The notes beneath the pieces are model-generated. The model saw only the letters and a program-made list of their open reading frames with translations, was not told the DNA's origin and did no database searches. Positions 760 to 60,903 of a stretch of 64,000 nt of DNA are shown piece by piece. The first letter of the stretch is position 1; each line of letters starts with the position of its first letter. Made by a program: the position numbers and the translations under genes. Origin of the DNA: Parashewanella spongiae (lineage in GTDB: Bacteria > Pseudomonadota > Gammaproteobacteria > Enterobacterales > Shewanellaceae); NCBI RefSeq assembly GCF_004358345.1, contig NZ_CP037952.1:1116001-1180000 (forward strand), given 5' to 3'.

Positions 760-1258
760 TCTAAATAAATCGGTTGAACGCACAATTTAACTTTAATTTA
801 TTGAAATTAAGTACAAAACTAAACAACCCGAATTCACCCATCATCCTAGAAACATCAGTTGACTGCGTTCTCAAGCGTAGAAAAAATGGCTGATATTAAG
901 ACGTAGTTTGCAGCAAGTAGTTATTCTACTTGCAAAAGTTACAACGCAGATAGCAGCCATTTTAGCAAGCTTGTGAGCGTAGAGTATTTCACTCATTGGG
1001 TGAAATTCATGATAATAAAATCATCCAATTGCTCAAACAGTTACTCATATACTCAGCGTTCAACTGATGTTTTTAGGATCATGAGTGCTGAACATTCATA
1101 TACTTGCCAAAATCACCACTAGCTGGGTTATAAATTTTGCAAATAGAAACGAAGTAACGACAGTTTTGTATGTCGGTAACCACTAATTGCTGCTATTCAT
1201 GCCTTGCTATCAGTAATTTTTTCTGCGTATATGAACGCTCCCAACCAATTTATTTAGG
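760..1258. repeat. Family A small inverted-repeat element, copy 1, interrupted by a family C element
   Basis: The left end CTAAATAAATCGGTTGAACG and the right end CCCAACCAATTTATTTAGG are the family A termini, also seen at 35615-35877, 36941-37201 and 60477-60903. The element is flanked by a perfect 5-bp direct repeat TTTAA (755-759 and 1259-1263). Without the 233-bp family C insertion it would be about 260 bp, like the other copies. It contains the shared hairpin module at 1147-1179. No coding capacity, so it is presumably mobilised in trans. Confidence 0.85.
845..1077. repeat. Family C small inverted-repeat element, copy 1, nested in family A
   Basis: Bounded by CCTAGAAACATCAGTTGA on the left and TCAACTGATGTTTTTAGG on the right, an inverted repeat. 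Flanked by a perfect 5-bp duplication ATCAT (840-844 and 1078-1082). Copies at 10062-10294 (also 233 bp) and 30102-30230 (internally deleted) confirm the boundaries. The target was the loop of a CACC-CATCA-GGTG hairpin present in intact family A copies. Its termini and centre resemble family A, so A and C are probably related subfamilies. Confidence 0.87.
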
Positions 1259-1303
1259 TTTAAACCAAAAAGTCATTTAATGACTGTTTTATTTAGTAAA
1301 TAC

Positions 1304-1621
1304 TAGGGTCTGTTGAACTTTCAGGATTAAATTTTGTGCTATTTGAGCATTTATCTGTTCAAGGCGTGAGCAGTGATGCTTAGCCATCTAAGTGAGCTGG
1401 TCACAACACAGAACAGTGAATGCTCAAAAGCATCGAAAAAAGAGAGAGCGTAAATTGGTCGCTCTTTCTAAATAAAAGGTGCTGCGTTATCGTTTTCTTA
1501 TTTGGAAACGAAGTAACGACAGTTTTGTATGTCGATAATAACCAAACCTCACAAACTCTGCCTTGCATAAAATAACCAATTTATCGCTGCAAAAACAATC
1601 ACGAAAGATCAACAAACCCTA
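1304..1621. repeat. Family D small inverted-repeat element, copy 1
   Basis: About 315 bp with termini TAGGGTCTGTTGAACTTTC and its inverted form ending CAACAAACCCTA. Close copies lie at 24459-24776, 43875-44192 and 47167-47432, and a chimeric copy starts at 29622. The TA at each end is the probable target duplication, shown directly by the copy at 47167. The centre carries the shared hairpin module (1506-1538). Confidence 0.87.
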
Positions 1622-1818
1622 ATATCTTTCATGACTATTAAGTCAGTTAAAGCTATTAATTATAAAATGATTAATCGGGGTCTATAGAGCCGAAACACTA
1701 ATGTGTCGCGAACTTCGTGCATATTATTGTGTTTTAAATAATTACTCAAATGTTAAATTGTTAGTTAGATATAGGCAAATCACATTGTTTTACAGATTAT
1801 TTCTCTGCAAATTAAGCA

Positions 1819-1847
1819 TTGACTATCAAGCCGTTAGTGTTTAAATT
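1819..1847 (+). promoter_or_regulatory. Predicted sigma-70 promoter of the borosin operon
   Basis: A TTGACT -35 box (1819-1824) and a TAAATT -10 box (1842-1847) are separated by 17 nt, about 46 nt ahead of the TTG start at 1894. The -35 matches consensus at 5 of 6 positions and the -10 at 4 of 6. No operator was recognised. Confidence 0.5.
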
Positions 1848-1893
1848 TCGACACATAACAATAATTCTAAATGTTACATTGAGGTGTTTTTAA

Positions 1894-2685
1894 TTGAGCT
1901 CACTCGTTTGCGTAGGTACTGGCCTACAACTCGCCGGACAAATAAGCGTTAGCAGTAAAAGCTATGTTGAACACGCTGATATCGTATTTTCGTTAATGCC
2001 CGACAGTCTTGCACAAAAATGGCTCGAAGGTTTAAATCCTAATAATGTTGATCTACAACAGTTTTACGCCAAAGAAGGTGAAGTCAAAAACCGCCGCGAT
2101 ACTTATTCTCAAATGGTTGATGTCATTCTTAATGCAGTAAGATCCGGTAAAAAAGTGGTCTGTGCACTGTACGGACACCCCGGTGTATTTGCATGTGTCT
2201 CACACTTGTCAATTAAACAAGCTCGAAAAGAAGGGTTTCGTGCGCATATGGAGCCGGGTATTTCAGCCGAGTCATGTTTGTGGGCTGATGTTGGTATCGA
2301 CCCAGGCAATTCAGGCCACCAAAGTTTCGAAGCCAGCCAGTTTATGTTTTTTAAACATACGCCCGATCCAACAACGCATTTATTATTATGGCAAATTGGC
2401 ATTGCAGGTGAGCATACGCTTACTGAATTTCATACTAATTCTGATCGGCTACAAGTGCTGGTGGAGCAGCTCAATGAGTGGTATCCGCTTGAACACGAAA
2501 TTATTATTTACGAAGGTGCAAACCTGCCTGTTTTCAAGGCACGTATTGAGCGCCTAGCACTAAAAGATTTGCCGCAAGCCGAATTGAGCTGCATAAGTAC
2601 TTTATTAATACCACCTTCAAAAAAACTTGAATACAACTTAGCGGTGCTTAATAAATTAGGGATAACACCTGAAGACTTTGGATGA
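1894..2685 (+). CDS. sonM: Split-borosin peptide backbone alpha-N-methyltransferase (SonM-like)
   Basis: A 263-aa SAM-dependent enzyme of the tetrapyrrole-methylase fold that in split borosin systems methylates backbone amide nitrogens of a separate precursor. The N-terminus LVCVGTGLQLAGQ is the typical first SAM-binding loop, and ALYGHPGVF (91-99) is the second family signature. Tyr58, Arg67, Tyr71 and Tyr93 lie where borosin N-methyltransferases place their catalytic Tyr/Arg cluster. This equivalence is recalled from the family, not aligned. The TTG start at 1894 is supported by GAGGTG 7 nt upstream; no ATG suits the conserved start. The adjacent downstream gene is a matching precursor, which makes a borosin role far likelier than cobalamin methylation. 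Confidence 0.9.
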   Translation: MSSLVCVGTGLQLAGQISVSSKSYVEHADIVFSLMPDSLAQKWLEGLNPNNVDLQQFYAKEGEVKNRRDTYSQMVDVILNAVRSGKKVVCALYGHPGVFACVSHLSIKQARKEGFRAHMEPGISAESCLWADVGIDPGNSGHQSFEASQFMFFKHTPDPTTHLLLWQIGIAGEHTLTEFHTNSDRLQVLVEQLNEWYPLEHEIIIYEGANLPVFKARIERLALKDLPQAELSCISTLLIPPSKKLEYNLAVLNKLGITPEDFG

Positions 2686-2749
2686 TTTGTGTTTAGGCGC
2701 TCAATCATGGCCTAAATTTTTGGGAAAATGCAAAAAAAGGAAAAGAAGA

Positions 2750-2968
2750 ATGTTAACTAAATTTTTAGAAAAATTGGGGCAAGATACTGAGCTATTAGAA
2801 GCTTATAAAAAAGACCCTAAAGGCGTGATGCAAAAACATGGTTTGAGTGATGAAGAAGTGAAAGCTGTGTTGAGTGGTGATGATCAAGCGATAAAAAAAG
2901 TAACCGGTAGCGTTAAAGTTCAATCATATATCTTAGTTGTTATTGGGAATGATGAAGACGCTAAGTAA
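2750..2968 (+). CDS. sonA: Borosin RiPP precursor peptide (SonA-like)
   Basis: A 72-aa precursor. Residues 1-50 form a helical Nif11-like borosin-binding domain: MLTKFLEKLGQD, then LLEAYKKDP, GVMQKHGLSDEEVKAVLSGD. A hydrophobic core follows near the C-terminus (SYILVVIG, residues 59-66) and ends NDEDAK. In the family, branched residues in such a core receive backbone N-methyl groups. The start at 2750 is set by AAGGA 8 nt upstream. A longer in-frame ATG at 2678 overlaps the methyltransferase and adds a lysine-rich stretch unlike the family. The 3' end overlaps the next gene by 20 nt. No protease or exporter gene is adjacent, so leader removal is not explained here. Confidence 0.88.
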   Translation: MLTKFLEKLGQDTELLEAYKKDPKGVMQKHGLSDEEVKAVLSGDDQAIKKVTGSVKVQSYILVVIGNDEDAK

Positions 2969-4802
2969 GTTACTTTTATTAAGTTTTATTATTTCAGGGC
3001 TTTTTTGCCCTGTTTTTGCGCAGGTTACTTATGAGACTGAATTTAAATCAATAAGCTCTTTATTACAGAGTGATTTATCATTAGCGGAGAAAAAAATACA
3101 CGAACTTGAGATTCAAATTGGCGATATGACGTCACATCAAAAAGCCATTTTTTTTCTAGTTAGTGGACACGCTGCAGTTTTTAAAGGAGAGTATAATAAA
3201 GCGGTAAGTTTGTTATCAAAAGCTCAGTTATTGACATTAGATAAGTTATTGCTTTCAAAGATTTACGGCCTTCAAGTCACAACCTATTTATCTACAAGAC
3301 AATACACTAACTCTTTTAAAGCTGCGAAAAATAGTTTATCAACGATAGACTTTATATCTGATAAAAAAATAAAGCGTGAAACTTATATTCGATTGTCAGG
3401 CGTTTTCAATGACTTAAATGCGCATCAATGGGCGAGAAAATATGCTTCAGAAGCGCTGTTAATTGCAAATAATAAAGCTGAAATTGCATGTAGCGCAAAA
3501 ATTTATTTAGCCGTTTCAGATTTAAAACAAAATGATTTTCAGTCCTCATACTCTGGATTTGAACAATCAAAAAAATATTGTGAAAAAAATGAGCTGTATT
3601 TATTGGCTACCATAGCACTAAAAGGAATGGGGCATTCTAAGCTTGAGTCTAAAGACTATATTAATGCCAAAGAGTTGTTAAAAGAGGCATTGAAAGGATA
3701 TAAAGAATTTCAGTATCAACTAGAACTTGTGCATACTCATTCCTTATTAGCTAAAACAAATTATTTTTTGAATAATTTTTCAAGTGCATTAAAACACTCT
3801 TCAGTTGTTGTTTCTCAGCAAGAAAAACCAGCCTTTTACGAAGCCAAACACAACGCTCATCAAACCCTCAGTAAAATCTATCACGCTCAAGGCAATTACA
3901 AGTTGGCGTATGAGCATGGCCAAAAAGAACATTTTTATCAAAATTGGTTGTACGACGACAATAAAATGAAAGCTTTAGCGGTTGAGGCGGCTAAATTTAA
4001 TTTTGATGAATTAGAGCGACTATTGCAGCTTAAAGAAAAGCCCGTATACGCTGGTTTGCTTAGAGAAGATGAAATCGTTGCTGAAAGTAACGCCCGTGAA
4101 TTGCAGCGTTTTTTATGGCAGTCAGCAGCAATTTTAATTACTACTTTTTTTATATCAGCATTATCGGCCATTCAGTTTTTATTAGACAAAATGCGATTTG
4201 ATAAAAACTCTGAAGTCGGTTTACTTAGATTAGACTATATGAATTATGCTGCCAGAGAGCTGATGTATAAAATGCGCTTTTCAGGTGAGCCATATGGCGT
4301 TATCGCTTTTAATTTAGACAGCCTTCCTGCCATTAATGAAACCTTTAACCATACCCGTGGTGATATTGCGATTGAATGTGTTGTCAATGCTATAAGAGAA
4401 GAGTTAAAAGGTAAGCCAAATGTACAGATTGGTCGCCACAGCGATACACTTTTTTATGTTTATGTAACCCATGCATTAACCGATGAGTTAGTGAAGCATT
4501 GCCAAAATTGTTTGGAGGTGATTCACAACTTTACTGAGGACGACTTGGCCTCGAACTATCGTATGCGGGTGACTTTTGGTGTCGGTGTTATTAGCGATTG
4601 CGAAGAAGCGTTTTCAACGGCCGAAGTTTTGAAAAAAGCTGATCTTGCACTAAAAAGGGCGCAAGAGCTTGGTGGTGATACCGTGGTTGGCTATGATGAT
4701 TCAATGGAGGTTGAAGAAGAGGAATCACATCCTCGTCGCCAAGCCCGATTTGTGCATTTTATTAATCCCAAGTTAATGGGTTCACCACGTAAACTTTTAT
4801 AA
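2949..4802 (+). CDS. Membrane TPR protein with degenerate GGDEF domain, borosin operon
   Basis: A 617-aa protein with a signal peptide (MMKTLSKLLL to VFAQ), an extracytoplasmic TPR-like helical array (about residues 30-360), one membrane segment near residues 389-412 (AAILITTFFISALSAI) and a cytoplasmic GGDEF-like domain (about 425-605). The GGDEF fold shows in FNLDSLPAINETFNHTRGD, but the catalytic signature is replaced by RHSDT near residue 494, so diguanylate cyclase activity is unlikely. Tandem ATGs at 2949 and 2952 lie within the precursor gene, suggesting translational coupling. It may sense or signal for the borosin product; that role is inference. It overlaps convergent mtfA by 41 nt. 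Confidence 0.8.
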   Translation: MMKTLSKLLLLSFIISGLFCPVFAQVTYETEFKSISSLLQSDLSLAEKKIHELEIQIGDMTSHQKAIFFLVSGHAAVFKGEYNKAVSLLSKAQLLTLDKLLLSKIYGLQVTTYLSTRQYTNSFKAAKNSLSTIDFISDKKIKRETYIRLSGVFNDLNAHQWARKYASEALLIANNKAEIACSAKIYLAVSDLKQNDFQSSYSGFEQSKKYCEKNELYLLATIALKGMGHSKLESKDYINAKELLKEALKGYKEFQYQLELVHTHSLLAKTNYFLNNFSSALKHSSVVVSQQEKPAFYEAKHNAHQTLSKIYHAQGNYKLAYEHGQKEHFYQNWLYDDNKMKALAVEAAKFNFDELERLLQLKEKPVYAGLLREDEIVAESNARELQRFLWQSAAILITTFFISALSAIQFLLDKMRFDKNSEVGLLRLDYMNYAARELMYKMRFSGEPYGVIAFNLDSLPAINETFNHTRGDIAIECVVNAIREELKGKPNVQIGRHSDTLFYVYVTHALTDELVKHCQNCLEVIHNFTEDDLASNYRMRVTFGVGVISDCEEAFSTAEVLKKADLALKRAQELGGDTVVGYDDSMEVEEEESHPRRQARFVHFINPKLMGSPRKLL

Positions 4803-5583
4803 GTTGCTGATAAAGCTGCGGGTAATCTTGATGCATTGCCTGTGGCTGCTCGAAAAACACTTCTGTTATTACTGCAAAAAATTCCGCCGGATTGGTGGCA
4901 CCATAATAATCGAACAGCGAGGGAATTTGTTGCTCAGCACACTGTTGTAATTTTATAAATTCTTGGTTGAGTATTTTTGACCACATTTCGTAGTCGTCAT
5001 TATTGGGTAAAAATGGTGCGCCATTGGCATTGCCTGATTCTTGATCGAGTTGGTGAGCAAACTCATGAAAAATCAGATTATGGCCGTCGTAAGGATCCTC
5101 GGCTGATATCAGCGTGTCACGCCACGACAATATGACTTGCCCTTGTTGCCATGACTCACCCAGTAACAAACGTCTTTTTTTAGACACAATACCATTATCG
5201 TTTTGCGGTGAGTTGACGTAAAACGCCGCTGGGTAAACCAATATTTGCCTGAGTTTTGGGTAATAATCGGTAGGTTTGTTGAGTAGTAATAAACAGGCTT
5301 GAGCAGCAATGGTGACTTTAACCTCGTCGGTGATCTGCATGCCGTCGCAACCAATGAACTGTTTTTCATCAATAAAGACTTGAATATGACGTTTAAGTTG
5401 CAGCTTTAGGTGATCGGGTAAATGGAGGAAAAACGGCAAGCGCTGCTTAATATAACTCCGCCATTGCTTTGGAAACGGTTGCGACATTACTGCTTTACGG
5501 CGCTTTTGTTTACGCCAATTGCTGCTTAACAACCATGTGCAAACACCAACGCCTACGAGTAATAACAGAATGATTGGAAGCAT
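4762..5583 (-). CDS. mtfA: Zinc-dependent peptidase MtfA (M90 family)
   Basis: A 273-aa protein of the MtfA family. In E. coli, MtfA binds the glucose repressor Mlc and has aminopeptidase activity. The zinc motif HEFAH is at residues 173-177, followed by LDQESG, and the downstream Glu-containing segment AEFFAVITEVFFEQ supplies the likely third ligand. The first 20 residues form a hydrophobic segment (LPIILLLLVGVGVCTWLL), so this form is probably membrane-anchored. It is convergent with, and overlaps by 41 nt, the TPR/GGDEF-like gene. No ptsG or mlc gene is nearby. Confidence 0.9.
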   Translation of the reverse strand: MLPIILLLLVGVGVCTWLLSSNWRKQKRRKAVMSQPFPKQWRSYIKQRLPFFLHLPDHLKLQLKRHIQVFIDEKQFIGCDGMQITDEVKVTIAAQACLLLLNKPTDYYPKLRQILVYPAAFYVNSPQNDNGIVSKKRRLLLGESWQQGQVILSWRDTLISAEDPYDGHNLIFHEFAHQLDQESGNANGAPFLPNNDDYEMWSKILNQEFIKLQQCAEQQIPSLFDYYGATNPAEFFAVITEVFFEQPQAMHQDYPQLYQQLIKVYVVNPLTWD

Positions 5584-5644
5584 ATGTTCTTAATGTTTTG
5601 TTTTTGTTATTTATATACCTTGGGGCGTGTGATTGAAAAATCAA

Positions 5645-7312: not shown

Positions 7313-7362
7313 AATTTTAGTGGGCATGGTATCCTTCGGAAAATTTTTTAAAGAGTTAAATT

Positions 7363-7737: not shown

Positions 7738-7746
7738 CGATTTGTT

Positions 7747-7790
7747 AGACTCATTCATAGAGTCAAGAATAAACCATGAATGAGTCTTTT
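7747..7790 (+). terminator. Rho-independent terminator after the RraB-like gene
   Basis: A perfect 12-bp stem AGACTCATTCAT / ATGAATGAGTCT (7747-7758 and 7776-7787) is followed by a T run. Confidence 0.8.
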
Positions 7791-7792
7791 AT

Positions 7793-10061: not shown

Positions 10062-10294
10062 CCTAAAAACATCAGTTGAACGCTGAGTATACGCGTAACT
10101 GTTTGAGCAATATAATGATTTTATCATCATGGCTTTCACCCAATGAGTGAAGTGCTCTACGCTCACAAGCTTGCTAAAATGACTGCTATCTGCGTTGTAA
10201 CTTTTGCAAGTAGAATAACTACTTGCTGCAAGCTACGCCTTACTATCAGCCATTTTTTCTACGCTTGAGAACGCAGTCAACTGATGTTTCTAGG
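10062..10294. repeat. Family C element, copy 2, inside IS1 insB and abutting the group II intron
   Basis: 233 bp bounded by CCTAAAAACATCAGTTGA and TCAACTGATGTTTCTAGG. The left flank TTAAA (10057-10061) reappears only after the intron (TTAAA, 12464-12468). This fits a 5-bp target duplication made when C entered insB, followed by the intron inserting exactly at the right end of C. Removing C, the intron and one TTAAA restores the insB frame TWIKRL. Confidence 0.87.
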
Positions 10295-10909
10295 GAGCGC
10301 CACGAAGCGCTTTATTCTGTTGCGGGATTTGTCTCAACGTATACGCAGCCAAGCGATTACATGGCCATAAACCAGAGACAGCAACGTTATTATTTATAAT
10401 AAGTCCATCAGGTTGAAACGTACCTGACGGGATAATTACCAGTTCATCCCGAAATCTGACGGGCATGCATAATGGGTAACCGCTATGACATGAAGCCCTG
10501 TGACAAAGGCCTTGAATAAAGGTTGAGATGCAATGTAGGCCGCAGCATCAAGCGAATTCAGTTAAGCGTCGTAAATCAAAAAATGAAGATGGGGAGTCTT
10601 TCCTAGTTGACGAACCCTGACACAAACAGAGAAGCAACTGTCTTGCAAAACACCGCTGTTTGATCTTCCGGCGTAATATGAAGTGGCATGTATTGAAGGA
10701 AATAAAGTGAACGTGGGAGAGCCTGAGTGTTGGAAGGTAGTGACTTCCACTATCCGAATATAAGGTAAACCGAAATTTCAGATAGGGCGCTCAGGCAGTC
10801 GGATGAGCCCATAGTACCGTTAACCGTGAAGACAACATAACTTTACATCAGGGAAGGGGCTCAGTGTTACACCCGTTTTTTAACGTAACTTTTGAGGTGA
10901 AATTGCCAT

Positions 10910-12343
10910 ATGGCTAACACTCCAGTAAATATCAGAATATTACAGCGAAAACTTTACTTACGCTCAAAGCTTAACTCGGAGCTTCGATTTTACAGCTTGT
11001 ACGATAAACTCAGTCGCCTAGATATACTCGAAGAAGCCTATCGACGATGCAAAGCCAATAAAGGCGGAGCAGGAATTGATGGCATCACATTCAGTTATCT
11101 AGAGCAGCAAAAGAAAGTCGTTGCGCTGTTAAAAGAAATTCAAACTCAATTACAACAGAAAAACTATCGACCTAGCCCAGTCAAACGAGTAGAAATACTC
11201 AAAGACAACGGCAAAACGCGGAAACTTGGGATCCCGATAATCAGTGACAGAATTGTGCAAATGGCGATGACAATAGTGATGCAACCCGTCTACGAACCTC
11301 ATTTACATGAACACAGTTATGGTTATCGTCCATGTCGAAGCGCCCAGCAAGCGGTAAAAGTCATTGAAATGAGCCTAAAACAAGGCTATCAGCACGTACT
11401 TGATGCTGACTTGAGCGCCTATTTCGATACCATACCGCACGCTAAGTTGATGGCAAAAGTAGAAAGGCGAATAAGCGACAGCAGCTTTCTGAGTTTGCTG
11501 AAAAGCTTTATCAAAGCGCCCATCAGCATAGAGACGGTCAACGGGAAATGGCGAATAGAAGCAAGCCGATGTGGCACTCCGCAAGGCGGAGTTATCTCTC
11601 CACTACTGGCTAACATCTATCTCAACGATTTCTGTTTGAAAATACACGAAAAAACACCGTGTAAAATCGTTACCTATGCAGATGATTTTGTTGTACTTCA
11701 TAAGCAAACCTACACACAAGAGCAACTGGACTGGATAACACAGCAATTAAGTGATGAAGGTCTGAAGCTAAATCAAAGTAAAACCCACTGTGTGGATATG
11801 GGAAAGCTGATGAATGAGTTTGATTTCCTCGGTTTTAACTTTCAACGGATCACAGGCCTCATCAAAGGCACCAGTTACATTAAGATACAGGCGTCTAAGG
11901 GATCTAGCGATTTAGAAAGTACCAATCTTTGTCATACCAGCGAAAGCTGGTATCCAGTGACTTTTTATAGGAAAAAGCAAAGGCACTAGACTCCAGCCTG
12001 CGCTGGAGTGACAAGAACTCATCGGTATACTTTCTTCCGCAACTTTCCTAAGAAGAGCCAAACAAAGCTGAAAAATAAACTCAGAGACATAGTGAAGCAT
12101 CGAACCTCAAATACACTTGGCGTACTAATAAATAAAGTTAATCAAGTTCTAAGGGGATGGAAACACTATTTTGCTGGGATAGGATATCCCAGAGGAGTAT
12201 TTTTCAGAATAAATGGATTTGTAGTAAACCGATTCTATCCATGGCATCGTCGCTTAAGTCAACGTCGAAGCAAGTATCTATCACGAGGTGCTTACGAAAA
12301 ATTACGCCAAGCTGGTCTTGAGTATTTACCCACGACAAGATGA
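10910..12343 (+). pseudogene. Group II intron reverse transcriptase/maturase (LtrA type), interrupted
   Basis: The N-terminal part (10910-11899) contains RT blocks: GGAGIDGITF, RPSPVKRVEI, GKTRKLGIPIISDRIVQMA, YGYRPCRSAQQAV, DADLSAYFDTIPH, TPQGGVISPLLANIYL and the catalytic YADD near residue 258. The frame is interrupted after IKIQASK by a 148-bp family F element. Beyond it the frame resumes as KKSQTKLKNKLRD and the maturase (GIIM) motif QVLRGWKHYFAGIG, ending YLPTTR at 12343. Removing F and one CTAAG restores one continuous ORF of about 425 residues with the order RT then maturase. No C-terminal HNH endonuclease domain is seen. Confidence 0.88.
11900..12047. repeat. Family F element, copy 1, inside the intron RT gene
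   Basis: 148 bp from GGATCTAGCGATTTAG to CCGCAACTTTC, flanked by a perfect 5-bp duplication CTAAG (11895-11899 and 12048-12052). It contains two internal palindromes: CATACCAGC-GAAA-GCTGGTATC and CTCCAGC-CTGC-GCTGGAG. This copy lacks the shared hairpin module. Confidence 0.87.
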
Positions 12344-12595
12344 TAAGCAAAGTGAAGGGGCTGAGAGAAGTGTAACAACAGAGCCGTGTGAGGGAAAACC
12401 TCATGCACGGAATCGAAGAGGGGCTGCTGGATAAGCGATAGCGAAGCCAGTAGCCTACTCTACTTAAAAGATTAGCACGAAGAACGATTTGTTTTTCAAA
12501 GTTAGAAAGTATGCACGATACGGTAATAGGTTTGTTAATCAATCGAGTAGAATTTGGGATTGATATTCATGCCTACCACTAAATTAGCCCACTAC

Positions 12596-21792: not shown

Positions 21793-22151
21793 ACCAATTA
21801 CAGTATTTAACTTCCCACTCAGCAAGAGTTAAAGGATTTCAGTACAAGGCGCAAGTTTGAAGTACTATATTCCCTACGGCCGCCATACAAAACTGGCGTT
21901 CAACGCACTTAGTGCTTTTGTCGGGATAATTCAAGTGCTTGTAACGCAGTAATGGAACCCTTTAGACTTGCCCTTCGGGAGCTTGTATGTGCTCATTTTT
22001 GTTTATAAAGAATACTACTCAAAATTGTCTTGACGTAGCAATGTAATAACGACAGTTTTGTATGTCGGTCATAACTATGTCTTCATCAATTTCACTTGTA
22101 CTTTGAACACATACATAGCTCTGAGCTGGGAATTTAATTACTGTAATTGGT
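21793..22151. repeat. Family E small inverted-repeat element, copy 1
   Basis: 359 bp with termini ACCAATTACAGTATTTAA and its inverted form ending TTACTGTAATTGGT. Flanked by a perfect 5-bp duplication ATAAT (21788-21792 and 22152-22156). A near-identical copy lies at 35900-36257. It contains the shared hairpin module (core 22050-22067). It ends about 30 nt before the DUF2960 start, so it may affect that promoter. Confidence 0.85.
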
Positions 22152-24460: not shown

Positions 24461-24776
24461 GGGTCTGTTGATCTTTCGTGATTGTTTTTGCAGCGATAAA
24501 TTGGTTATTTTATGCAAGGCAGAGTTTGTGAGGTTTGGTTATTATCGACATACAAAACTGTCGTTACTTCGTTTCCAAATAAGAAAACGATAACACAGCA
24601 CCTTTGATTTAGAAAGAGCGACCAATTTACGCTCTCTCTTTTTTCGATGCTTTTGAGCATTCACTGTTCTGTGTTGTGACCAGCTCACTTAGATGGCTAA
24701 GCATCACTGCTCACGCCCTGAACAGATAAATGCTCAAATAGCACAAAATTTAATCCTGAAAGATCAACAGACCCTA
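24459..24776. repeat. Family D element, copy 2
   Basis: Full-length copy from TAGGGTCTGTTGATCTTTC to the inverted end CAACAGACCCTA. It is flanked by TA on both sides, the left TA shared with IS630, and carries the hairpin module (core 24546-24563). Confidence 0.87.
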
Positions 24777-29624: not shown

Positions 29625-30078
29625 GGTCTGTTGATCTTTTAGGATTAAATTTTGTGCTATTTGAGCATTTATCTGTTCAAGGCGTGAGCAGTGATGCTTA
29701 GCCATCTAAGTGAGCTGATCACAACACAGAACAGTGAATGCTCAAAAGCATCGAAAAAAGAGAGAGCGTAAATTGGTCGCTCTTTCTAAATCAAAGGTGC
29801 TGCGTTATCGTTTTCTTATTTGGAAACTGTCGTTATTACATTGCTACGTTAAGACAATTTTGCGTAGTAATTTGGACACATACAAGCTCCCGAAGGGCAA
29901 GGCTAAAGGATTCCATTACTGCGTTGCAAGTTTTTGAATTATCCCGACAAAAGCACGAAGTGCGTTGAACGCCAGCATTGTATGGCGGCCGTTAGGGTAT
30001 ATAGTACCTCAAACTTGTGCCTTGAACTGAAACCCTTTAGCTCTTGCTGAGTGGGAAGTTAATTACACCATTGATATC
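29622..30078. repeat. Chimera of family D and family E elements
   Basis: The left part (29622-29827) is family D from its TAGGGTCTGTTGATC terminus to TTATTTGGAAAC. It then switches to inverted family E sequence (TGTCGTTATTACATTGCTACG) that runs to a degraded E end near 30078. The switch falls at the hairpin module that both families carry, and the D right half and E left half are missing. Confidence 0.8.
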
Positions 30079-35614: not shown

Positions 35615-35877
35615 CCTAAATAAATCGGTTGGGAGCGTTCATATACGCAGAAAAAATTACTGATAGCAAGGCATGAATAGCAGCAAGTAGTGGTTACCGA
35701 CATACAAAACTGTCGTTACTTCGTTTCTATTTGCAAAATTTATAACGCAGCTAGCGGTGGTTTTGGCAAGTATATGAATGTTCAGCACTCACCTGATGGG
35801 TGAATTTGGGTTGTTTAGTTTTGTATTTAACTTCAATAGATTAAAGCTAAATTGTGCGTTCAACCGATTTATTTAGG
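35615..35877. repeat. Family A element, copy 2 (intact)
   Basis: 263 bp from CCTAAATAAATCGGTTG to CAACCGATTTATTTAGG, flanked by a perfect 5-bp duplication TTTAT (35610-35614 and 35878-35882). It carries the hairpin module (core 35698-35715). It serves as the reference copy for the family. Confidence 0.9.
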
Positions 35878-35899: not shown

Positions 35900-36257
35900 A
35901 CCAATTACAGTAATTAATCTCTCACTCAGCAAGAGCTAAAGGGTTTCAGTGCAAGGCACAAGCTCGAAGTACTATATACCCTACGGCCGCCATACGAAAC
36001 TGGCGTTCAACGCACTTGTGCTTTTGTCGGGATAATTCAAGTGCTTGTAACACAGTAATGGAACCCTTTAGCCTTGCCCTTCGGGAGCTTGTATGTGCTC
36101 ACTTTGGTTTATAAAGAATACTTCTCAAAATTGTCTTGACGTAGCAATGTAATAACGACAGCTGTGTATGTCGGTAATAACTATGCCTTCATCAATTTCG
36201 ATTGCACTTTGAGCACATATATAGCTCTGAGTTGAGCATTTAATTACTGTAATTGGT
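35900..36257. repeat. Family E element, copy 2 (intact)
   Basis: 358 bp from ACCAATTACAGTAATTAA to TTACTGTAATTGGT, close to the copy at 21793-22151. The module core at 36156-36173 has changes in its loop (CGACAGCTGTGTATGTCG) but keeps the stem. It ends 1 nt from the FKBP stop codon. Confidence 0.87.
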
Positions 36258-36258
36258 A

Positions 36259-36940: not shown

Positions 36941-37201
36941 CCTAAATAAATGGTTGGGAGCGTTCATATACGAAGAAAAAAGTACTGATAGCAAGGCATG
37001 AATAGCAGCAAGTAGTGGTTACTGACATACAAAACTGTCGTTATTTCGTTTCTACTTGCAAAATGTATAACGCAGCTAGCGGTGATTTTGGCAAGTATAT
37101 GAATGTTCAGCACTCACCTTATGGGTGAATTCGGGTTGTTTAATTGTGTATTTAACTTCAAAGGTTAAAGCTAAATTGTGCGTTCAACCGATTTATTTAG
37201 G
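36941..37201. repeat. Family A element, copy 3 (intact)
   Basis: 261 bp with termini CCTAAATAAATGGTTG and CAACCGATTTATTTAGG. The flanks ATTAT and ATTCT differ at one position, consistent with an aged 5-bp duplication. The hairpin module is present (core about 37022-37040) with a changed base in the stem. It ends 60 nt before the next gene. Confidence 0.87.
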
Positions 37202-42567: not shown

Positions 42568-43018
42568 TTAACCTTTTTTACCGCCGATATCAGCACAAGC
42601 TTTTACTGGAGTCAGTACGAAACCAGTGCCTTTACAGCTTGCATGACCCGCACAGGCATTCTTGTCTGTTTTACAGTCATTATGACCTTTACATACGTTC
42701 ACACCTAGACAATGAACAAGCTCAGACTTAGCAACTTTACCCATCCATTCATCGCTTACTTTACCACCAACGTCTTTACAGCTCTTAGATGGCATAGCAA
42801 CGAAACCAGTACCTTTACAGCTCGCGTGTCCGCCGCAAGCATTTTTGTCTGTTTTACAATCATTATGACCTTTACAGACATTTACACCGTAACAATGAAC
42901 TAAATCAGTGCTTGAGCCAGCAGGCCCCAGCAGGTGCGGCTTGAGCTGCAGTGCTCATACCCGCCATTGACATCGCTAGTGCTGCACCAGTTAGTGCGGT
43001 TTGTGTTTTTCTATTCAT
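42568..43018 (-). pseudogene. bufA2: Cys-rich bufferin precursor (BufA2, 12-Cys type), frameshifted
   Basis: From the ATG at 43018 (AAGGA 7 nt upstream) the frame gives a signal peptide MNRKTQTALTGAALAMSMAG to STAAQA, then PAGACWLKH and a stop. One frame over, the sequence continues without break: [35 protein letters not shown], then a near-copy [16 protein letters not shown] and so on to GGKKG. An imperfect 10-bp tandem duplication (42917-42926 and 42927-42936) causes the shift. Removing one unit restores a 146-aa protein with two 6-Cys repeats (12 Cys), the BufA2 layout. As given, only an internal ATG at 42795 would express one repeat, without a signal peptide. Confidence 0.85.
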
Positions 43019-43874: not shown

Positions 43875-44192
43875 TAGGGTCTGTTGATCTTTCGTGATTG
43901 TTTTTGCAGCGATAAATTGGTTATTTTATGCAAGGCAGAGTTTGTGAGGTTTGGTTATTATCGACATACAAAACTGTCGTTAATTCGTTTCCAAATAAGA
44001 AAACGATAACACAGCACCTTTGATTTAGAATGAGCGACCAATTTACGCTCTCTCTTTTTTCGATGCTTTTGAGCATTCACTGTTCTGTGTTGTGACCAGC
44101 TCACTTAGATGGCTAAGCATCACTGCTCACGCCTTGAACAGATAAATGCTCAAATAGCACAAAATTTAATCCTGAAAGATCAACAGATCCTA
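43875..44192. repeat. Family D element, copy 4
   Basis: Full length, TAGGGTCTGTTGATCTTTC to the inverted CAACAGATCCTA, with TA at both ends and the hairpin module (core 43962-43979). It lies 46 nt upstream of the nuclease gene, so that promoter lies in or just after the element. Confidence 0.87.
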
Positions 44193-47076: not shown

Positions 47077-47518
47077 GAAAGTTGCGGAAGAAAGTATACC
47101 GATGAGTTCTCGTCACTCCAGCGCAGGCAGGAAACTAAGTAACGACAGTTTTGTATGTCGGTAGTCTAGGGGCTGTTTATCTTTCGTGATTATTTTTGCA
47201 GCGATAAATTGGTCGTTTTATACAAGACAGAGCTTGTGCGGTTTGGTATTCCAAATAAGCAAGCGATAACGCAGTAGAAATGACCAATTTACGCAGTCTT
47301 AGATGCTTTTGAGCGTTCACTGTTCTGTGTTGTAACCCGTTTACTTAGATGACTAAGCTTCACTGCTTACGCCTTGAACAGATAAACGCTCAAATAGCAC
47401 AAAATTTAATCCTGAAAGATAAACAGCCCCTAGTGCCTTTGCTTTTTTCTATAAAAGTCACTGGATACCAGCCTTCGCTGGTATGACAAATATTGGTACT
47501 TTCTAAATCGCTAGATCC
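47077..47518. repeat. Family F element, copy 2, interrupted by family D
   Basis: F sequence runs 47077-47166 (GAAAGTTGCGGAAGAAAG onward) and 47433-47518 (to CTAGATCC). Between them a family D element sits in the CTAG of F. This F copy also has the hairpin module (core 47143-47160), which copies 1 and 4 of F lack. Confidence 0.85.
47167..47432. repeat. Family D element, copy 5, nested in family F
   Basis: 266 bp from TAGGGGCTGTTTATCTTTC to GAAAGATAAACAGCCCCTA. The uninterrupted F copy at 56126 reads AGTCTAGTGCC where this one reads AGTCTA-D-TAGTGCC, which directly shows a TA target duplication. This D copy lacks the hairpin module: its centre reads TTTGGTATTCCAAA. Confidence 0.9.
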
Positions 47519-51097: not shown

Positions 51098-51317
51098 TAC
51101 GAGAAAATAACACCTTAGGGATCTAGCGATTTAGAAAGTACCAATCTTTGTCATACCAGCGAAGGCTGGTATCCAGTGGTTTTTATAGAAAAAAGAAAAG
51201 GCACTAGACTCCCGACAAAAACTGTCTTTACTTCGTTTCCAGCCTACGCTGGAGTGATGAGAACTCATCGGTATACTTTCTTCTGCAACTTTCCTTAAAA
51301 GGTGTTATTTTCTCGTA
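51098..51317. terminator. Terminator-like palindrome after the permease, split by family F
   Basis: The left arm ACGAGAAAATAACACCTT (51099-51116) and the right arm AAGGTGTTATTTTCTCGT (51299-51316) are perfect inverted repeats. With the family F element and one CCTTA removed they would form a hairpin with a 2-nt loop, 27 nt after the permease stop. The insertion lies in the loop. Confidence 0.75.
51118..51292. repeat. Family F element, copy 3
   Basis: From GGGATCTAGCGATTTAG to CTGCAACTTT, flanked by a perfect 5-bp duplication CCTTA (51113-51117 and 51293-51297). It contains a diverged hairpin module (CCGACAAAAACTGTC, 51212-51226). Confidence 0.85.
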
Positions 51318-53420: not shown

Positions 53421-53424
53421 TTTA

Positions 53425-55942: not shown

Positions 55943-55958
55943 TACGATTTTAATTATC

Positions 55959-55986
55959 AAAAAGCGACCAGAAGGTCGCTTTTTTT
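55959..55986 (+). terminator. Terminator after the S46 peptidase gene
   Basis: Stem AAAAAGCGACC / GGTCGCTTTTT with an AGAA loop and a run of seven T. Confidence 0.9.
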
Positions 55987-56125
55987 GTGTAATGTTATTA
56001 ATCGTTCTTGATATTTGAGGTTTAAACTAAATCCTGAACTAAGTTGCAAGCCCTCTAGCTTCGAAGATAAGGTGCTCAAATTGGCATTTTATCCCTAACC
56101 CTGAAGCCAACATCCTTCTTTTAAG

Positions 56126-56273
56126 GAAAGTTGCGGAAGAAAGTATACCGATGAGTTCTTGTCACTCCAGCGCAGGCTGGAGTCTAGTGCCTTTGCTTTT
56201 TCCTATAAAAAGTCACTGGATACCAGCTTTCGCTGGTATGACAAAGATTGGTACTTTCTAAATCGCTAGTTCC
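56126..56273. repeat. Family F element, copy 4
   Basis: 148 bp, inverted relative to copy 1 (GAAAGTTGCGGAAG to GCTAGTTCC) and nearly identical to it. It lacks the hairpin module. Target duplication is unclear (TTAAG and CTAAA). Confidence 0.85.
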
Positions 56274-56360
56274 CTAAAATACCCACGATATTACAACATT
56301 ACAGAAGTTTTGGTGGTGAGTGCTACTTTGTGTTATTTCATTAATCAACCTGAACTCAGG

Positions 56361-56450
56361 ATAAGCAAACCTCTACAGCACAGCTATTGTCGGCTATTAC
56401 AGAGTTGTAACTCTCTGAAAAAGATTCGCTATTACAGAAAATTACGCCTC
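56361..56450. repeat. Dispersed repeat shared with 42311-42420
   Basis: ATAAGCAAACCTCTACAGCA and CAGCTATT match 42311. The region downstream contains CAGAGTTGTAACTCTCTG, a local palindrome. The rest of 56274-56541 shows no gene. Confidence 0.5.
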
Positions 56451-56541
56451 GTACTAGACGAAACTAGCCGCTCTGTAGATTGAATTTAAATTTATTGCTT
56501 ATAAAAAATTGGTTTATAGGTTTCATTATTCCGATATCAGG

Positions 56542-57195
56542 TTATTCAGCACCAAAAACAACATCTTCTTTTGAATCCAACCACATTGGATATTGCGCCA
56601 TTACCTTGCTGAACATTTTGCTTTGTAGATAGCCGTTAAGCCACTGCCTGAGGTTTGGATAAGGTGATTGTAAATACCATTGTCGCTCGACTCGGGCAAA
56701 CTGACGGATGAAGGGCATTAAGGCGAGATCCGTTAAGCTTGGTTTGTCAGACATCAAATATTGATGCTGGCTCAGTCGTGACTCTAAATCCGCCAGATAA
56801 CGCTCACATTGCTGCCTATCTTCAAGCAATGATGGTTCATGATAGCGTTTTGAGCAGCGATACTTTTCAAGATGCCCTTTAAATTCGTTATCAAATAGTG
56901 CAATAACTGACAACATTTCAACCAAAGCAGAAGTGTGTGCTTTATTAAGGTAATCATCAGGATCAGTTTGAGAAAATGCCCACTTCATGATTGATAGGCT
57001 TTCATCAATCACTTGCTTATCCGCTGTGACGAGTACTGGCACCGTTCCTTTGGGGGATACGATGAGCATTTCAGCGGGCTTGTTGCTAAGCACTATGTCA
57101 CGTAATAGTACCTGTTGGCCAGACGCATAAAGCGCCAATCTTGCTCGCATTGCATAAGGGCAATTTCTTAAAGAATACAGTATCGGTAATGCCAT
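56542..57195 (-). CDS. Glutathione S-transferase family protein
   Basis: A 217-aa GST-like protein. The thioredoxin-fold N-domain LPILYSLRNCPYAMRARLAL has a CPYA motif (Cys at about 13), followed by SPKGTVPVLV with the cis-Pro and ESLSIMKWAF. The all-helical C-domain contains SDKPSLTDLALMPFIRQFARV. The catalytic-type Cys suggests a glutaredoxin-like or omega-like transferase. It is transcribed divergently from the U32/RlhA gene, with a 113-bp shared spacer. Confidence 0.88.
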   Translation of the reverse strand: MALPILYSLRNCPYAMRARLALYASGQQVLLRDIVLSNKPAEMLIVSPKGTVPVLVTADKQVIDESLSIMKWAFSQTDPDDYLNKAHTSALVEMLSVIALFDNEFKGHLEKYRCSKRYHEPSLLEDRQQCERYLADLESRLSQHQYLMSDKPSLTDLALMPFIRQFARVERQWYLQSPYPNLRQWLNGYLQSKMFSKVMAQYPMWLDSKEDVVFGAE

Positions 57196-57308
57196 GATTT
57201 AATTCATTGTCAGGTAACGGGTTTAGGAATAATTTACTTTAACGATATTCATTAGCAAAATATACGGGTAACATCCCCCCAATTAATTATTAAAGGCAAG
57301 TTGTAACC

Positions 57309-59600
57309 ATGGATCCAAAGATTGAATTATTAGCACCAGGCGGAGATATTGATGCGATTAAGGCGGCTATCATCGCCGGAGCCGATGCGGTCTACTGCGG
57401 CTTAGATAACTTTAATGCTCGTAATCGTGCCTCTAATATTTCCTTTGATGAATTGGTTGGGATCATTCGGTTAGCGCATCAATACGAATGCCAGATATTT
57501 CTTACCTTGAACATTGTTATTTTAGAAAACGAATTTAAGTCGTTAGCCAAGTTGCTGAGTCGATTGGTGAACACAACGCTTGATGGTGTGATTGTTCAAG
57601 ATATTGGTATGTTTCATTTGCTTAGAAAACATTTTCCAACTTTGGACATTCACGCATCGACACAGCTTACGACTCACAATGCTGGACAAATTTCTTTTTT
57701 GAAAAAGCTGGGTGCCTCGCGAGTGAATTTATCACGAGAGCTCAATTTACGTGAGATAACGGCATTAACCGCAACCGGCCACGAGCATGGTATTACCACT
57801 GAAGTGTTTGTGCATGGTTCATTGTGTATTGCGTTTTCGGGTTTGTGTTACTCTACTTCCGCGAGTGTGGGTAACTCGGGGAATCGAGGCCGTTGTAGCC
57901 AAGCGTGCCGAGAAGAATATGAAACTACCGAGTCTGGTCATAATTTCCCGCTTAATATTAAAGATAATTCGGCATTTTTCGATTTACCGGCATTAATCGA
58001 AGCTGGTGTGCACTCGTTTAAAGTTGAAGGCCGAATTAAAGGGGCTGAATATGTTCATACGGTCATCGACAGTTTCCGAAAACAAATCGATGGCTATCTT
58101 AAAACGGGTGAGCTGCTTGAAGATGGTGAACGCCTTTACAAAGTTTTCAATCGCGATTTAACTAACTCTTTTTTAAAGGGTGATTTGAATCAGTCGATGT
58201 TTATTGATAATCCACGGGATAACTCAAAACATCATCTAAAAGATAAACTCACTCAAAATGGCACTCAATCTATTTCCATTGTTCAAATTCATGATGCTGA
58301 GAAAGAGTTAAAGCTCGAAAAACGACAAATTCAAGCTACTGTAAAAGACAAAATACAACACTTGAGTGTCGGCAAACTGCCATTGACTTTAGCTTTTTCA
58401 GGGCAACAAGGACAACCACTGACGATTACAGTGACTACCCAAGATTTTGTTGTGGCACAAACTCAGTTAGAGGATAAAGTGTTTACTTTTCAGTCACAAC
58501 ATTTGCTCGCTCCAAGCGATGAAGCAAGCATTGACTTAAGCGCGATAGAAAAACGCTTTAAAGGCTTAAATAATGCTGAATTTGATTTAAAACCATACAA
58601 TATAGACGGCTTAGCGTCTGGGCTGAGTATTCCTTTTAAGGAATTGACGACCCTTAAAAAACAAATTTCATTGGAGTTGAACCACGGCGTTTCCGTAAAG
58701 CCTGCGGTTGAATTACCAAAACTTATTAACCACCCAAAAGCTGAAACTGGAGTAGCGCAGTTATCCGTTTTAATTTGTGATAAAGCCGATATTAGTTTTG
58801 TAGAACACACTAAAGCTGACGTTTACTTTAAATTGCCGGATGCTTATAAGCGTGGCTGCACTCAGTATGTTGACTTTTTTAAGCAAAACCCGCGACTGAT
58901 CCCTTGGTTCCCGTCAGTGCTTATCGGTAAAGACTATGATGTGGCGCTCAATGTTTTAGAGCAAGTGCGGCCAGAACTTATTGTCACCAACAATACCGGT
59001 ATTGCACATCGTGCTTATGAACTCGGAGTTAAGTGGATTGCAGGGCCCTTTTTAAATACCACCAACTCTTATGCTTTACTGGCGATGCAAGAGCAATTTG
59101 ACTGTCACGGCGCCTTTATTTCTAATGAAATTAACCGTCAACAAATTAGGCATATTGCACGGCCTGCTAATTTTAAAATGATGTACAGCGTCTATCATCC
59201 TATTTTGTTGATGGCGAGCAGACAATGTTTCTTCCAACAAAGTGTTGGCTGTGAAAAACCGCGTATAGATAATGGTTGTATGCTGTCTTGTGATAAGAAA
59301 ACTAGTATCACTAATTTGAAAGGCGATGAGTTTGCAATCGATAAACAAAAAGGCGGTTATCCAAGCATTTATAACCAAGATCAATTTTTAAATACTGAGA
59401 TCATTGATGACTTAGCACATCTGTTTGATGGCTTTATGATTGATTTAACCAATATCGGTGCTGGAGATAAACCGTCCCCCGATAAGCTGCAGCTTATCAA
59501 AGAGTTTGAGCTGCTTTTAGCTGGGCAGCCTTCTTCGGCGGAAAGGCTCGATAATATGGTGACTCAATCCACTGTGCTGCAATATCACAACGGTTTATAA
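57309..59600 (+). CDS. rlhA: U32 family peptidase-like protein, RlhA/YdcP type
   Basis: A 763-aa U32 protein. E. coli RlhA (YdcP) is needed for 5-hydroxylation of C2501 in 23S rRNA. Features: ELLAPGGDIDAIKAAIIAGADAVYCG, FNARNRASNIS, GVIVQDIGMFHLLR, the U32 signature VFVHGSLCIAFSGLCYSTSA followed by NRGRCSQACRE, and IKVEGRIK-like SFKVEGRIKGAEY. A C-terminal extension beyond the U32 core contains further Cys (QSVGCEKPRIDNGCMLSCDKK). The Cys set may bind a metal cluster. AAGG precedes the ATG. It is monocistronic with a terminator shared with the convergent barrel gene. Confidence 0.88.
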   Translation: MDPKIELLAPGGDIDAIKAAIIAGADAVYCGLDNFNARNRASNISFDELVGIIRLAHQYECQIFLTLNIVILENEFKSLAKLLSRLVNTTLDGVIVQDIGMFHLLRKHFPTLDIHASTQLTTHNAGQISFLKKLGASRVNLSRELNLREITALTATGHEHGITTEVFVHGSLCIAFSGLCYSTSASVGNSGNRGRCSQACREEYETTESGHNFPLNIKDNSAFFDLPALIEAGVHSFKVEGRIKGAEYVHTVIDSFRKQIDGYLKTGELLEDGERLYKVFNRDLTNSFLKGDLNQSMFIDNPRDNSKHHLKDKLTQNGTQSISIVQIHDAEKELKLEKRQIQATVKDKIQHLSVGKLPLTLAFSGQQGQPLTITVTTQDFVVAQTQLEDKVFTFQSQHLLAPSDEASIDLSAIEKRFKGLNNAEFDLKPYNIDGLASGLSIPFKELTTLKKQISLELNHGVSVKPAVELPKLINHPKAETGVAQLSVLICDKADISFVEHTKADVYFKLPDAYKRGCTQYVDFFKQNPRLIPWFPSVLIGKDYDVALNVLEQVRPELIVTNNTGIAHRAYELGVKWIAGPFLNTTNSYALLAMQEQFDCHGAFISNEINRQQIRHIARPANFKMMYSVYHPILLMASRQCFFQQSVGCEKPRIDNGCMLSCDKKTSITNLKGDEFAIDKQKGGYPSIYNQDQFLNTEIIDDLAHLFDGFMIDLTNIGAGDKPSPDKLQLIKEFELLLAGQPSSAERLDNMVTQSTVLQYHNGL

Positions 59601-59609
59601 GAGTATAAA

Positions 59610-59635
59610 AAAACGGCAAACTTTGTTGCCGTTTT
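59610..59635. terminator. Bidirectional terminator between rlhA and the barrel gene
   Basis: Stem AAAACGGCAA / TTGCCGTTTT with a 6-nt loop, A run on one side and T-rich tail on the other. Confidence 0.87.
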
Positions 59636-59650
59636 AATTTTGCGTAGCGA

Positions 59651-60331
59651 TTAGAAACGGTACAATACGCCCAGTGTAACAACTGGATACCATTTGTATT
59701 CTTGAATGTCTTCTTCTAGCTTATCTTGCTCGATTCGTACATCGGCGAGTAATTGATCACATAAGGTTTGTTCAAGTGCAGCACCACAGGTGACATTAAG
59801 TTGTGATTCTGGAGTGTCTTGATAAAACGCACCAATATCGAGGTTAAATGCCCAACTCGAAGTACTGGTTGGCGAGGCCGACCAGCCAAAACCAATGTAC
59901 GGGGCTACTTTTTTAAACTCGATTTTACCATCAGCAGACGCGACATCTTCCACTTGATAAACATCACCATTAAACTCGTATTCACCATCAATTGCCTGCG
60001 CAGCGGCATTGACTTTATTACCGTTGTAATAAGCGCCAGCGCTTAAGCGGAAGCTCGATGAATCCCAAGGATGATAATCGAATACCACTGAGGCACTACG
60101 CAGCTGTATTTCTGCTTCGTAGGTAATATCATTTTCAGTAAAATCGTCATCGTAATTGAAACCGTTGATCCCGAAACGGAGATTAACGTTATCTGAAATT
60201 CCAGTGTAGTACTCGATACCAGCTCCCGCGGATCCCGCTTTAATGGCAACACCATTAGCTGAGTCCGCTTGAGCCTGAGAAGAAAGTAAAACAGAAGAAA
60301 TGATTAATGCTACGGCAGTTAAAGATTTCAT
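59651..60331 (-). CDS. Outer membrane beta-barrel protein
   Basis: A 226-aa protein with a signal peptide (MKSLTAVALIISSVLLSSQAQA) and alternating hydrophobic strands (GVAIKAGSAGAGIEYYTG, VNLRFGINGFNYDD, SFRLSAGAYYNGNK, WYPVVTLGVLYRF), ending in Phe as usual for BAM substrates. It resembles small 8-stranded barrels annotated as OmpW- or opacity-like. The function is unknown. The ATG at 60331 has AAGGA 6 nt upstream; an in-frame ATG at 60349 does not. Confidence 0.8.
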   Translation of the reverse strand: MKSLTAVALIISSVLLSSQAQADSANGVAIKAGSAGAGIEYYTGISDNVNLRFGINGFNYDDDFTENDITYEAEIQLRSASVVFDYHPWDSSSFRLSAGAYYNGNKVNAAAQAIDGEYEFNGDVYQVEDVASADGKIEFKKVAPYIGFGWSASPTSTSSWAFNLDIGAFYQDTPESQLNVTCGAALEQTLCDQLLADVRIEQDKLEEDIQEYKWYPVVTLGVLYRF

Positions 60332-60476
60332 TTTTATCCTTAAAAACATTATTTATTGTAAACAATCACTGAATTATAGACGGATAAGGAAGTGTATGCG
60401 TTGTATTGGTGATACTTTTACTCAAAATAGAGCGACCCAATGTGAGCTTTCTGAAACTTTTTAGCCGTTCATTTAA

Positions 60477-60903
60477 CCTAAAAATATCAGTTGAACGCAT
60501 AATTTAACTTTAATTTATTGAAATTAGGTACAAAATTAAACAAGCCGGATTCACCTATCAGGTGAGTGCTGAACATTCATATACTTGCCAAAATCACCGA
60601 TAGCTGCGTTATAAATTTTACAAGTAAGTACCTGGCCATAAGTTTCTTAAGATTTTCTAGTGCCCAGTTTCAGCACTCTACGGTGTTGCAACTTCGGTTA
60701 CATAGCTACGGCTATGCGCCCTACATTGCGTCTTGTATAGCACTAAACCTGAACACAATAATTATCAAAGAACTTATCGACAGGTACTTAGAAACGAAGT
60801 AACGACAGTTTTGTATGTCGGTAACCACTACTTGCTGCTATTCATGCCTTGCTATCAATAATTTTTTCTGCGTATATGAACGCTCCCAACCGATTTATTC
60901 AGG
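60477..60903. repeat. Family A element, copy 4, interrupted by family B
   Basis: Left end CCTAAAAATATCAGTTGAAC, right end CAACCGATTTATTCAGG, flanked by perfect TTTAA duplications (60472-60476 and 60904-60908). The left terminus is intermediate between families A and C. A family B element occupies 60627-60788. The hairpin module core is at 60803-60820. Confidence 0.88.
60627..60788. repeat. Family B element, copy 2, nested in family A
   Basis: 162 bp, inverted relative to copy 1, with TA on both sides (60625-60626 and 60789-60790). Intact A copies read CAAGTAGAAACG or CAAATAGAAACG where this reads CAAGTA-B-TAGAAACG, which shows TA duplication directly. Confidence 0.9.

Follow-up and report, generated by a model that had tools for sequence, protein, structure and literature searches.

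A 31-bp hairpin module recurs in palindromic repeats of the window

The 64,000-nt stretch analysed here (the window) belongs to the 5.47-Mb single-contig genome of Parashewanella spongiae (G000) and contains a short hairpin module lodged in four families of larger repeats (A, D, E and F). The full unit measures 31 bp and consists of an 18-nt core, CGACAGTTTTGTATGTCG, preceded by a left tail. A scan for the core located it at 1158, 1517, 22050, 36156, 47143 and 60803 on the plus strand, and at 24546, 35698, 37023 and 43962 on the minus strand. Eight of these cores are exact, and those at 36156 and 37023 carry two loop mismatches and one stem mismatch, respectively. A first-pass annotation of the window had proposed the module at 11 sites with a 33-bp consensus. 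All 11 sites are borne out, one in degenerate form, and the length is corrected to 31 bp rather than 32–33.

Family A carries the module at 1147–1177 (plus strand), 35696–35726 (minus), 37021–37051 (minus, the copy with the stem change) and 60792–60822 (plus). In the last of these, a G element (60625–60790, ends TAAGTACCTG..CAGGTACTTA) sits beside the module and interrupts the left arm of A. In family D, the module occupies 1506–1536 (plus, GAT end), 24544–24574 (minus) and 43960–43990 (minus). In family E, it lies at 22039–22069 (plus, with a CAATGTAATAA tail) and at 36145–36175 (plus, the copy with two loop changes, placed by its core and the E junction). Family F, which is of the repetitive extragenic palindromic (REP) type, has a complete module at 47132–47162 (plus) and the degenerate one at 51205–51238 (minus, near 51212), in which the AAACGAAGTAA tail is intact and the hairpin is damaged. 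The F element at 47132 also holds an empty D element at its CTAG. Such D insertions into the CTAG of F, with apparent duplication of CTAG (window 47166–47432), are found at several loci and represent a miniature inverted-repeat transposable element (MITE) nested in a REP.

E elements bear a second hairpin, CGCCA-GTTTTGTA-TGGCG, in which a stem pair is changed in a compensatory manner and the loop is unchanged. It is found at 21879–21909 (minus), in the other E copy at 35988–36005 (minus, 18-nt core only), and at 29959–29989 (plus) in an inverted E joined to a D left arm. The junction between this D left arm and the inverted E left arm (29823–29840, plus) falls within a damaged module. The sites that had been listed as empty were likewise confirmed: the D apex at 47242–47255, reading TTTGG-TATT-CCAAA on the plus strand, the F sites at 11986–11998 (minus) and 56175–56187 (plus), and the C apices at 913–933 and 10206–10226.

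Architecture of the module

The 31-nt unit is composed of an 11-nt tail, which mostly ends in RTAA, a 5-bp stem enclosing an 8-nt loop, and a final dinucleotide that is mostly GT or AT; its ends form no terminal inverted repeats. Across 140 distinct modules the tetranucleotide preceding the stem is most often GTAA, ATAA or TGAA, and variant left tails, CAATGTAATAA and AAATGTAATAA, occur in E and G. In 864 kb, the loop GTTTTGTA stands inside a stem of at least 4 bp in 78 of its 144 occurrences, as compared with 0–2 for each of the shuffled loops tried. Judged by eye, the mid-loop bases are most variable in G004, one of the four further genomes of the genus (G001–G004) that served as relatives.

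Stem covariation is limited to a single position. Counted without a shuffle control, 119 of the 140 modules have A-T and 16 have C-G at pair 3, whereas the remaining four pairs vary little or change mostly on one side. Most of the 16 C-G modules are the second hairpin of E (21881, 35988 and within 29959–29989 of the window), and the C-G pair is also found with a normal tail at locus L216 and with a variant tail at L143. Counts from best-match pattern scans are lower bounds, as imperfect copies that precede better ones are skipped. Lists obtained in this way underlie the stem-pair counts above and, below, the flank groups, the family z scores, the strand split of F, the 115-site stem test and the clustering of ORFs near modules; the 153-copy recount, the junction census and the whole-genome counts are unaffected.

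Filled and empty junctions differ by a near-constant length

To compare repeats with and without the module, same-family arms were paired and the gap between them was measured over 1.264 Mb of the P. spongiae genome (the window plus 60 stretches of 20 kb), with only recognised partner arms counted. In family A, the gap is 36 nt in 19 of 20 filled junctions (29 nt in the other) and 5 nt in all five empty ones. Family D gives 36 nt in 29 of 30 filled junctions (37 nt in one), and its 13 empty junctions measure 4 nt (ten copies, a separate D subfamily) or 5 nt (three copies). All 43 filled E junctions have a 30-nt gap, and the five empty ones have gaps of –2 (two), –1 (two) and 3 nt (one). In family F, 9 of 13 filled junctions span 31 nt (the rest 27, 28, 30 and 37 nt), and 13 of 14 empty junctions span 0 nt, the exception being a partial module of 17 nt. 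The usual difference between filled and empty junctions is thus 31 nt, with 32 nt in one D subfamily and part of E. For instance, the empty D apex TTTGG-AATAA-CCAAA corresponds to TTTGG-AAACGAAGTAA[18]ATAATAA-CCAAA when filled, and the empty F site CTGG-AGTCTAG corresponds to CTGG-AAACGAAGTAA[18]GTAGTCTAG, where [18] denotes the core.

Where both arms belong to family C, all 47 junctions lack the module, and three filled junctions pair a C-like left arm with an A right arm. Family G has 13 empty junctions, and one filled copy was seen separately. No target duplication is visible in the filled/empty pairs of A, D, E, F or of X, a family found in one of the relatives.

Independent insertions and tandem units in relatives

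In the four relatives, the module is present in additional contexts. Clustering the flanks of 233 canonical copies, including those of the P. spongiae sample (34 non-canonical copies were dropped), yielded 45 groups; some of these are chimeras or truncations, and one group of 107 chains several palindrome families. In G003, family X offers a filled form, ..ACACAGTT[31]AATTGATG.., and an empty form, ..ACACAATTAATTGATG.., within the same genome, differing by an insert of exactly 31 bp. Among the X matches listed, with at most 40 candidates scored per genome, no other runs from the element across the module. Families J and K are one palindrome with modules at two positions and in opposite orientations, as seen in an alignment of two J and two K copies over ~130 nt. 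As read from these alignments, X and J/K represent at least two independent insertions of the module.

A probable orthologous filled/empty pair is provided by the intergenic site between two genes that we take, from their protein sequences, to be queA and tgt. The module is present there in G003 and absent from G004, where the left flank is conserved and the right flank has diverged, so that the exact insert length is unreadable. Furthermore, loci L127 and L128 contain tandem units exactly 31 bp apart with differing loops. In G004, four loci (L126, L129, L131 and L210) show paired module-like hairpins 84–85 bp apart; the right flank CAATCAAAAATCTAATT comes after the module in combination with at least five distinct left flanks.

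Insertion sites and kinship of the host families

The first-pass annotation described the module as a mobile hairpin occupying the apical loop of larger palindromes. Its placement in the apical region holds for most A, D, E, H, I and J copies. Most A, D, H, I and J copies have the insert where the 5' strand of the stem meets the loop, with a 5-nt loop remaining 3' of the insert; in E, the stem at the insertion site is only 3 bp. F differs in that its insert is found at the 3' foot, rather than the apex, of a REP-like hairpin. Counted copy by copy in the relatives, a stem of at least 5 bp encloses the module at 35 of 115 sites, versus 9.7% with shuffled flanks. Counted by the 45 flank groups, such a stem is found in 3 (control 4.5%) and a stem of at least 4 bp in 10 (control 14.7%), so no general apex rule emerges. 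The mobility itself is supported by the 31-bp filled/empty pairs, the opposite orientations in J/K and the tandem units, although part of the shared occupancy may reflect descent, because the families with apical modules share a weak skeleton.

This kinship also qualifies the statement that the host families share no obvious sequence, which stands for F against A, D and E but not for all pairs. A and C are clearly related (z 31), and a weak similarity connects D and E with sister palindromes. Same-strand apex similarity gives z scores of 7.7 for D–I, 6.2 for D–J, 5.7 for C–J and 5.2 for E–I, with 1.2 for A–D and –1.1 for A–E. Since A/C, D, E, I and J share this residual similarity, their common site may be inherited. 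No comparable similarity to A, C, D or E was seen for F, X or Z.

Taken further, these observations would make the module the apex of one ancestral palindrome of A, C, D, E and their sisters, the empty copies being precise losses by slippage and F having acquired it by recombination. The apex similarities fit this scenario in part, as do the short AA repeats that bound the 31 nt on both sides in filled A and D apices. It is also consistent with a tree of 41 D copies, where a clade of otherwise filled copies (SH-aLRT 96) includes the empty L060 and L063; ten other empty copies group together with two filled ones. The five empty copies in the A tree are scattered among filled ones without resolution of their placement, and the F tree is likewise without resolution. 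However, F, X and Z fall outside the similarity, X has a single filled copy among the matches listed, the modules of J/K sit at two positions in opposite orientations, and the junctions with both C arms are empty in 47 of 47 cases. We therefore regard a single ancestral apex as unlikely, X and J/K having already weakened the case for it. The module seems to be both gained and precisely lost.

Exchange of arms through the module

Ten junctions in the 1.264-Mb sample connect arms of different families via the module, and all of them involve F. An eleventh, between E and a variant F arm, was recognised by eye at L049, and two further joins lack an intact module (D–E at window 29823 and E–F at L254). 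With A/C hybrids excluded, chimeras make up 10 of 116 filled and 1 of 98 empty junctions (Fisher p = 0.013, a value that is optimistic given the two module-less joins). Three of the four F–D joins read F-left, module, D-right, CTAG, F-right, the order expected if a deletion had run from the F module to the module of a D element nested at the CTAG of F. At L074 and L075, two right arms are joined head to head, with the break at the stem itself. Random homologous recombination was rejected as the source of the chimeras: F would be expected in ~31% of them from filled copy numbers but takes part in all ten, and local deletion between nested or neighbouring copies therefore fits better.

Such joins raise the possibility that the module has no dedicated enzyme and passes from one palindrome to another during replication, through template switching or short ectopic recombination. 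The ten inter-family joins, the deletion-like F–D joins and the head-to-head breaks at the stem would all agree with this. Template switching would be expected to leave ragged lengths, whereas the filled-minus-empty difference is 31 or 32 nt in most copies of five families in two genomes; moreover, the arm exchanges are mostly local and confined to joins with F. On balance, enzyme-free spread appears unlikely.

Abundance and taxonomic range

A whole-genome search, as the first-pass annotation had suggested, found 578 cores at up to 2 mismatches in P. spongiae and none for the reversed pattern, which excludes chance. At the same threshold, the 1.264-Mb sample contains 153 copies, whereas the reversed control gives none there and a single match at 3 mismatches. 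ATG-started open reading frames (ORFs) of at least 150 aa span 73% of the sample yet contain no midpoint of the 153 modules; with a looser, flawed ORF list, 2 of 153 copies lie inside ORFs.

Within Shewanellaceae, the module was detected in all five Parashewanella genomes, with fewer copies in the relatives than in P. spongiae. Three of 147 other genomes of the family gave a single 2-mismatch match each, and the reversed control likewise matched in 3 of 147, indicating background. In an earlier set of 60 genomes, four of them Parashewanella, none of the 55 outside the genus matched at 1 mismatch (0 of 56 if the P. spongiae genome is set apart), and when named genomes were scanned for an exact 23-base match, the 25 stretches recovered all came from Parashewanella curva, P. 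hymeniacidonis and Shewanella sp. OPT22. The module is thus confined to one genus in the collections searched, and the suggested horizontal sharing of the hairpin is not seen beyond the genus in these genome sets. An origin from phages or plasmids was set aside, as the module has no match in the phage and plasmid collections. No module of the window matches Rfam; three hits in the window reach the gathering score, and all are group II introns that do not coincide with a module. In the part of the literature covered by a limited search, nothing was found on the hairpin sequence or on repeats of this kind in Parashewanella, Shewanella or Colwellia.

Search for mobilising machinery

We next consider whether known enzymes accompany the module. 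A profile search for PF01797 gave 18, 1, 10, 1 and 9 matches in G000–G004 (39 in total). All ten Y1 proteins tested are of the IS200 type, the RAYT model scoring below cut-off for nine and being absent for one. A canonical module lies near 3 of the 32 scanned Y1 loci (L088, L089 and L094), in each case as an ordinary A or E repeat; on these ten proteins and 32 loci, mobilisation linked to RAYT or IS200 was rejected. Hairpins with 3 mismatches occur near two Y1 loci, L154 and L155; the latter, a locus of G004 with a Y1 transposase fragment, has a module-like hairpin with a GCCA/TGGC stem at 1033–1050. The linked REP- or IS200-type transposase that had been anticipated was looked for in all five genomes and not found. 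An IS200/IS605-derived element would be expected to have two subterminal hairpins like those of an insertion sequence (IS) of the genome. The module has one hairpin, and no canonical copy stands at IS ends in the 32 of 39 loci scanned, although L155 holds the module-like hairpin just described.

Other candidates were also dismissed. No long autonomous version with cargo between the module halves is present in 1.37 Mb; of three matches to one half alone, one resembles coding sequence, another is a decayed tandem unit and the third is the damaged junction at window 29827. When 591 ORFs near modules were clustered for a shared neighbour gene, the 14 clusters listed looked housekeeping, hypothetical or like intron reverse transcriptase (RT). 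An integron attC or tyrosine-recombinase site was set aside on inspection by eye only.

Copying of the hairpin through RNA by a group II intron RT is a further possibility. RT matches number 85 (fragments included) in P. spongiae, and one cluster of nine RT ORFs lies within 1.2 kb of modules. By comparison, G001–G004 have 0, 1, 0 and 3 RT matches. G001 and G003 carry modules without any RT match, including the X insertion of G003, and therefore a genome can carry the module without a present-day RT, although the enzyme may since have been lost. This route is already disfavoured, and we consider it very improbable.

The module resembles a REP-like mobile hairpin

The 31-bp difference between filled and empty copies, the independent insertions, the tandem units, the covarying pair, the restriction to one genus and the exchange of arms are established at the level of sequence. 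With modest confidence, we read the module as a REP-like mobile hairpin of very small size that is non-autonomous and resides within MITEs and REP-type repeats. Other palindromic repeats would receive it in or next to their hairpins, with no visible duplication of the target, and the near-identical arms of its hosts suggest that it may gain copies mainly by hitch-hiking when the host repeats are copied. Like REP or IS200/IS605 elements, the module might itself move as a folded single strand that a putative trans-acting enzyme cuts and joins, possibly guided to the cleavage site by the tetranucleotide 5' of the stem. More tentatively, the module could be a hyperparasitic single-strand hairpin transposon of 31 nt, among the smallest known, which inserts and excises with near single-base precision at the loops or feet of palindromes by means of an enzyme that the host encodes and whose type has so far had no link to REP-like repeats; this extended form is possible but doubtful.

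Several observations weigh against the interpretation as a mobile hairpin. The preference for apices is not significant over the 45 flank groups, and the residual apex similarity among A/C, D, E, I and J is in line with inheritance of the site. Since two empty D copies nest among filled ones, some empty sites are losses. With the terminus set near 2.75 Mb from GC skew, the modules of the 1.264-Mb sample show no overall replication-strand bias (71 vs 82; 7 vs 15 for F copies alone). In addition, no Y1 transposase is clearly linked to the module in the 32 of 39 loci scanned across five genomes, and direct filled/empty length comparisons come from two genomes, G000 and G003.

By analogy, the module appears to work most like a REP. 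It shares with the REP/REPIN systems of RAYT (TnpA-REP) the nature of a short (20–40 bp), extragenic, high-copy palindrome with a conserved tetranucleotide adjoining the stem. In one TnpA-REP system, the tetranucleotide beside the stem participates in the choice of the cleavage site (PMC8266576). REPs inside larger palindromes have been described for A. variabilis, T. roseum and H. neapolitanus in another study (PMC3733652). However, the module has an RTAA-type tag rather than GTAG at the stem foot, no RAYT gene flanked by the repeat was found, and the unit is a single 31-nt hairpin rather than a doublet. Because the GTAG and RAYT tests fail, we do not file it as a REP. It also differs from REPs in occupying several host families, both MITEs and REPs, within which filled and empty forms coexist. 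CGTC-tagged REPs have a CGTC tag, a stem of 8–9 bp, a loop of 4–5 nt and a CCA tail (PMC3733652), unlike the 5-bp stem and 8-nt loop of the module.

Like MITEs, the module is non-autonomous and of high copy number, and on inspection A, D and E, among its hosts, have the appearance of MITEs. The module itself is distinguished from MITEs by its lack of terminal inverted repeats and of visible target duplication. The GC clusters of yeast mitochondria (GC42) are similar in being tiny palindromic mobile DNA without a known enzyme, and they merge and shuffle (PMC4478555). They have a putative AG target duplication, whereas the module has none and is bacterial, chromosomal and nested in MITEs.

The small dispersed repeats of cyanobacteria offer another likeness: in the work of Elhai (2008), these are reportedly 20–30 bp long, mobile, without a known enzyme and nested in other repeats. 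The module differs in phylum and in sequence.

This system makes it testable how REP-like hairpins spread without an associated transposase. Filled and empty copies exist in several families of two genomes, filled contexts occur in three more, and the insert length is mostly constant to within a base, so that substrate, targets and controls are defined by their sequences. The system also illustrates repeats nested in repeats, in which a tiny element seems to gain copies by riding on MITEs and to seed exchange between them.

Group II introns and other features

In the window, group II introns occupy 10406–12463 and 62758–62832. Across the P. spongiae chromosome, where such introns are very abundant compared with the four relatives, most lie on the plus strand in the first half and on the minus strand in the second, judged by eye, as if oriented by replication. 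Some introns appear by eye to end directly inside E or F arms (L049, 16180–16270; L056, 5229–5320; L075, 2286–2370). Introns may thus use MITE and REP arms as targets, although those at L074 and at window 12463 do not end in this way. Finally, window 42617–42908 contains two copies of a 109-nt stretch that are 83% alike, with a start-to-start distance of 183 nt, possibly encoding a cysteine-containing protein repeat.

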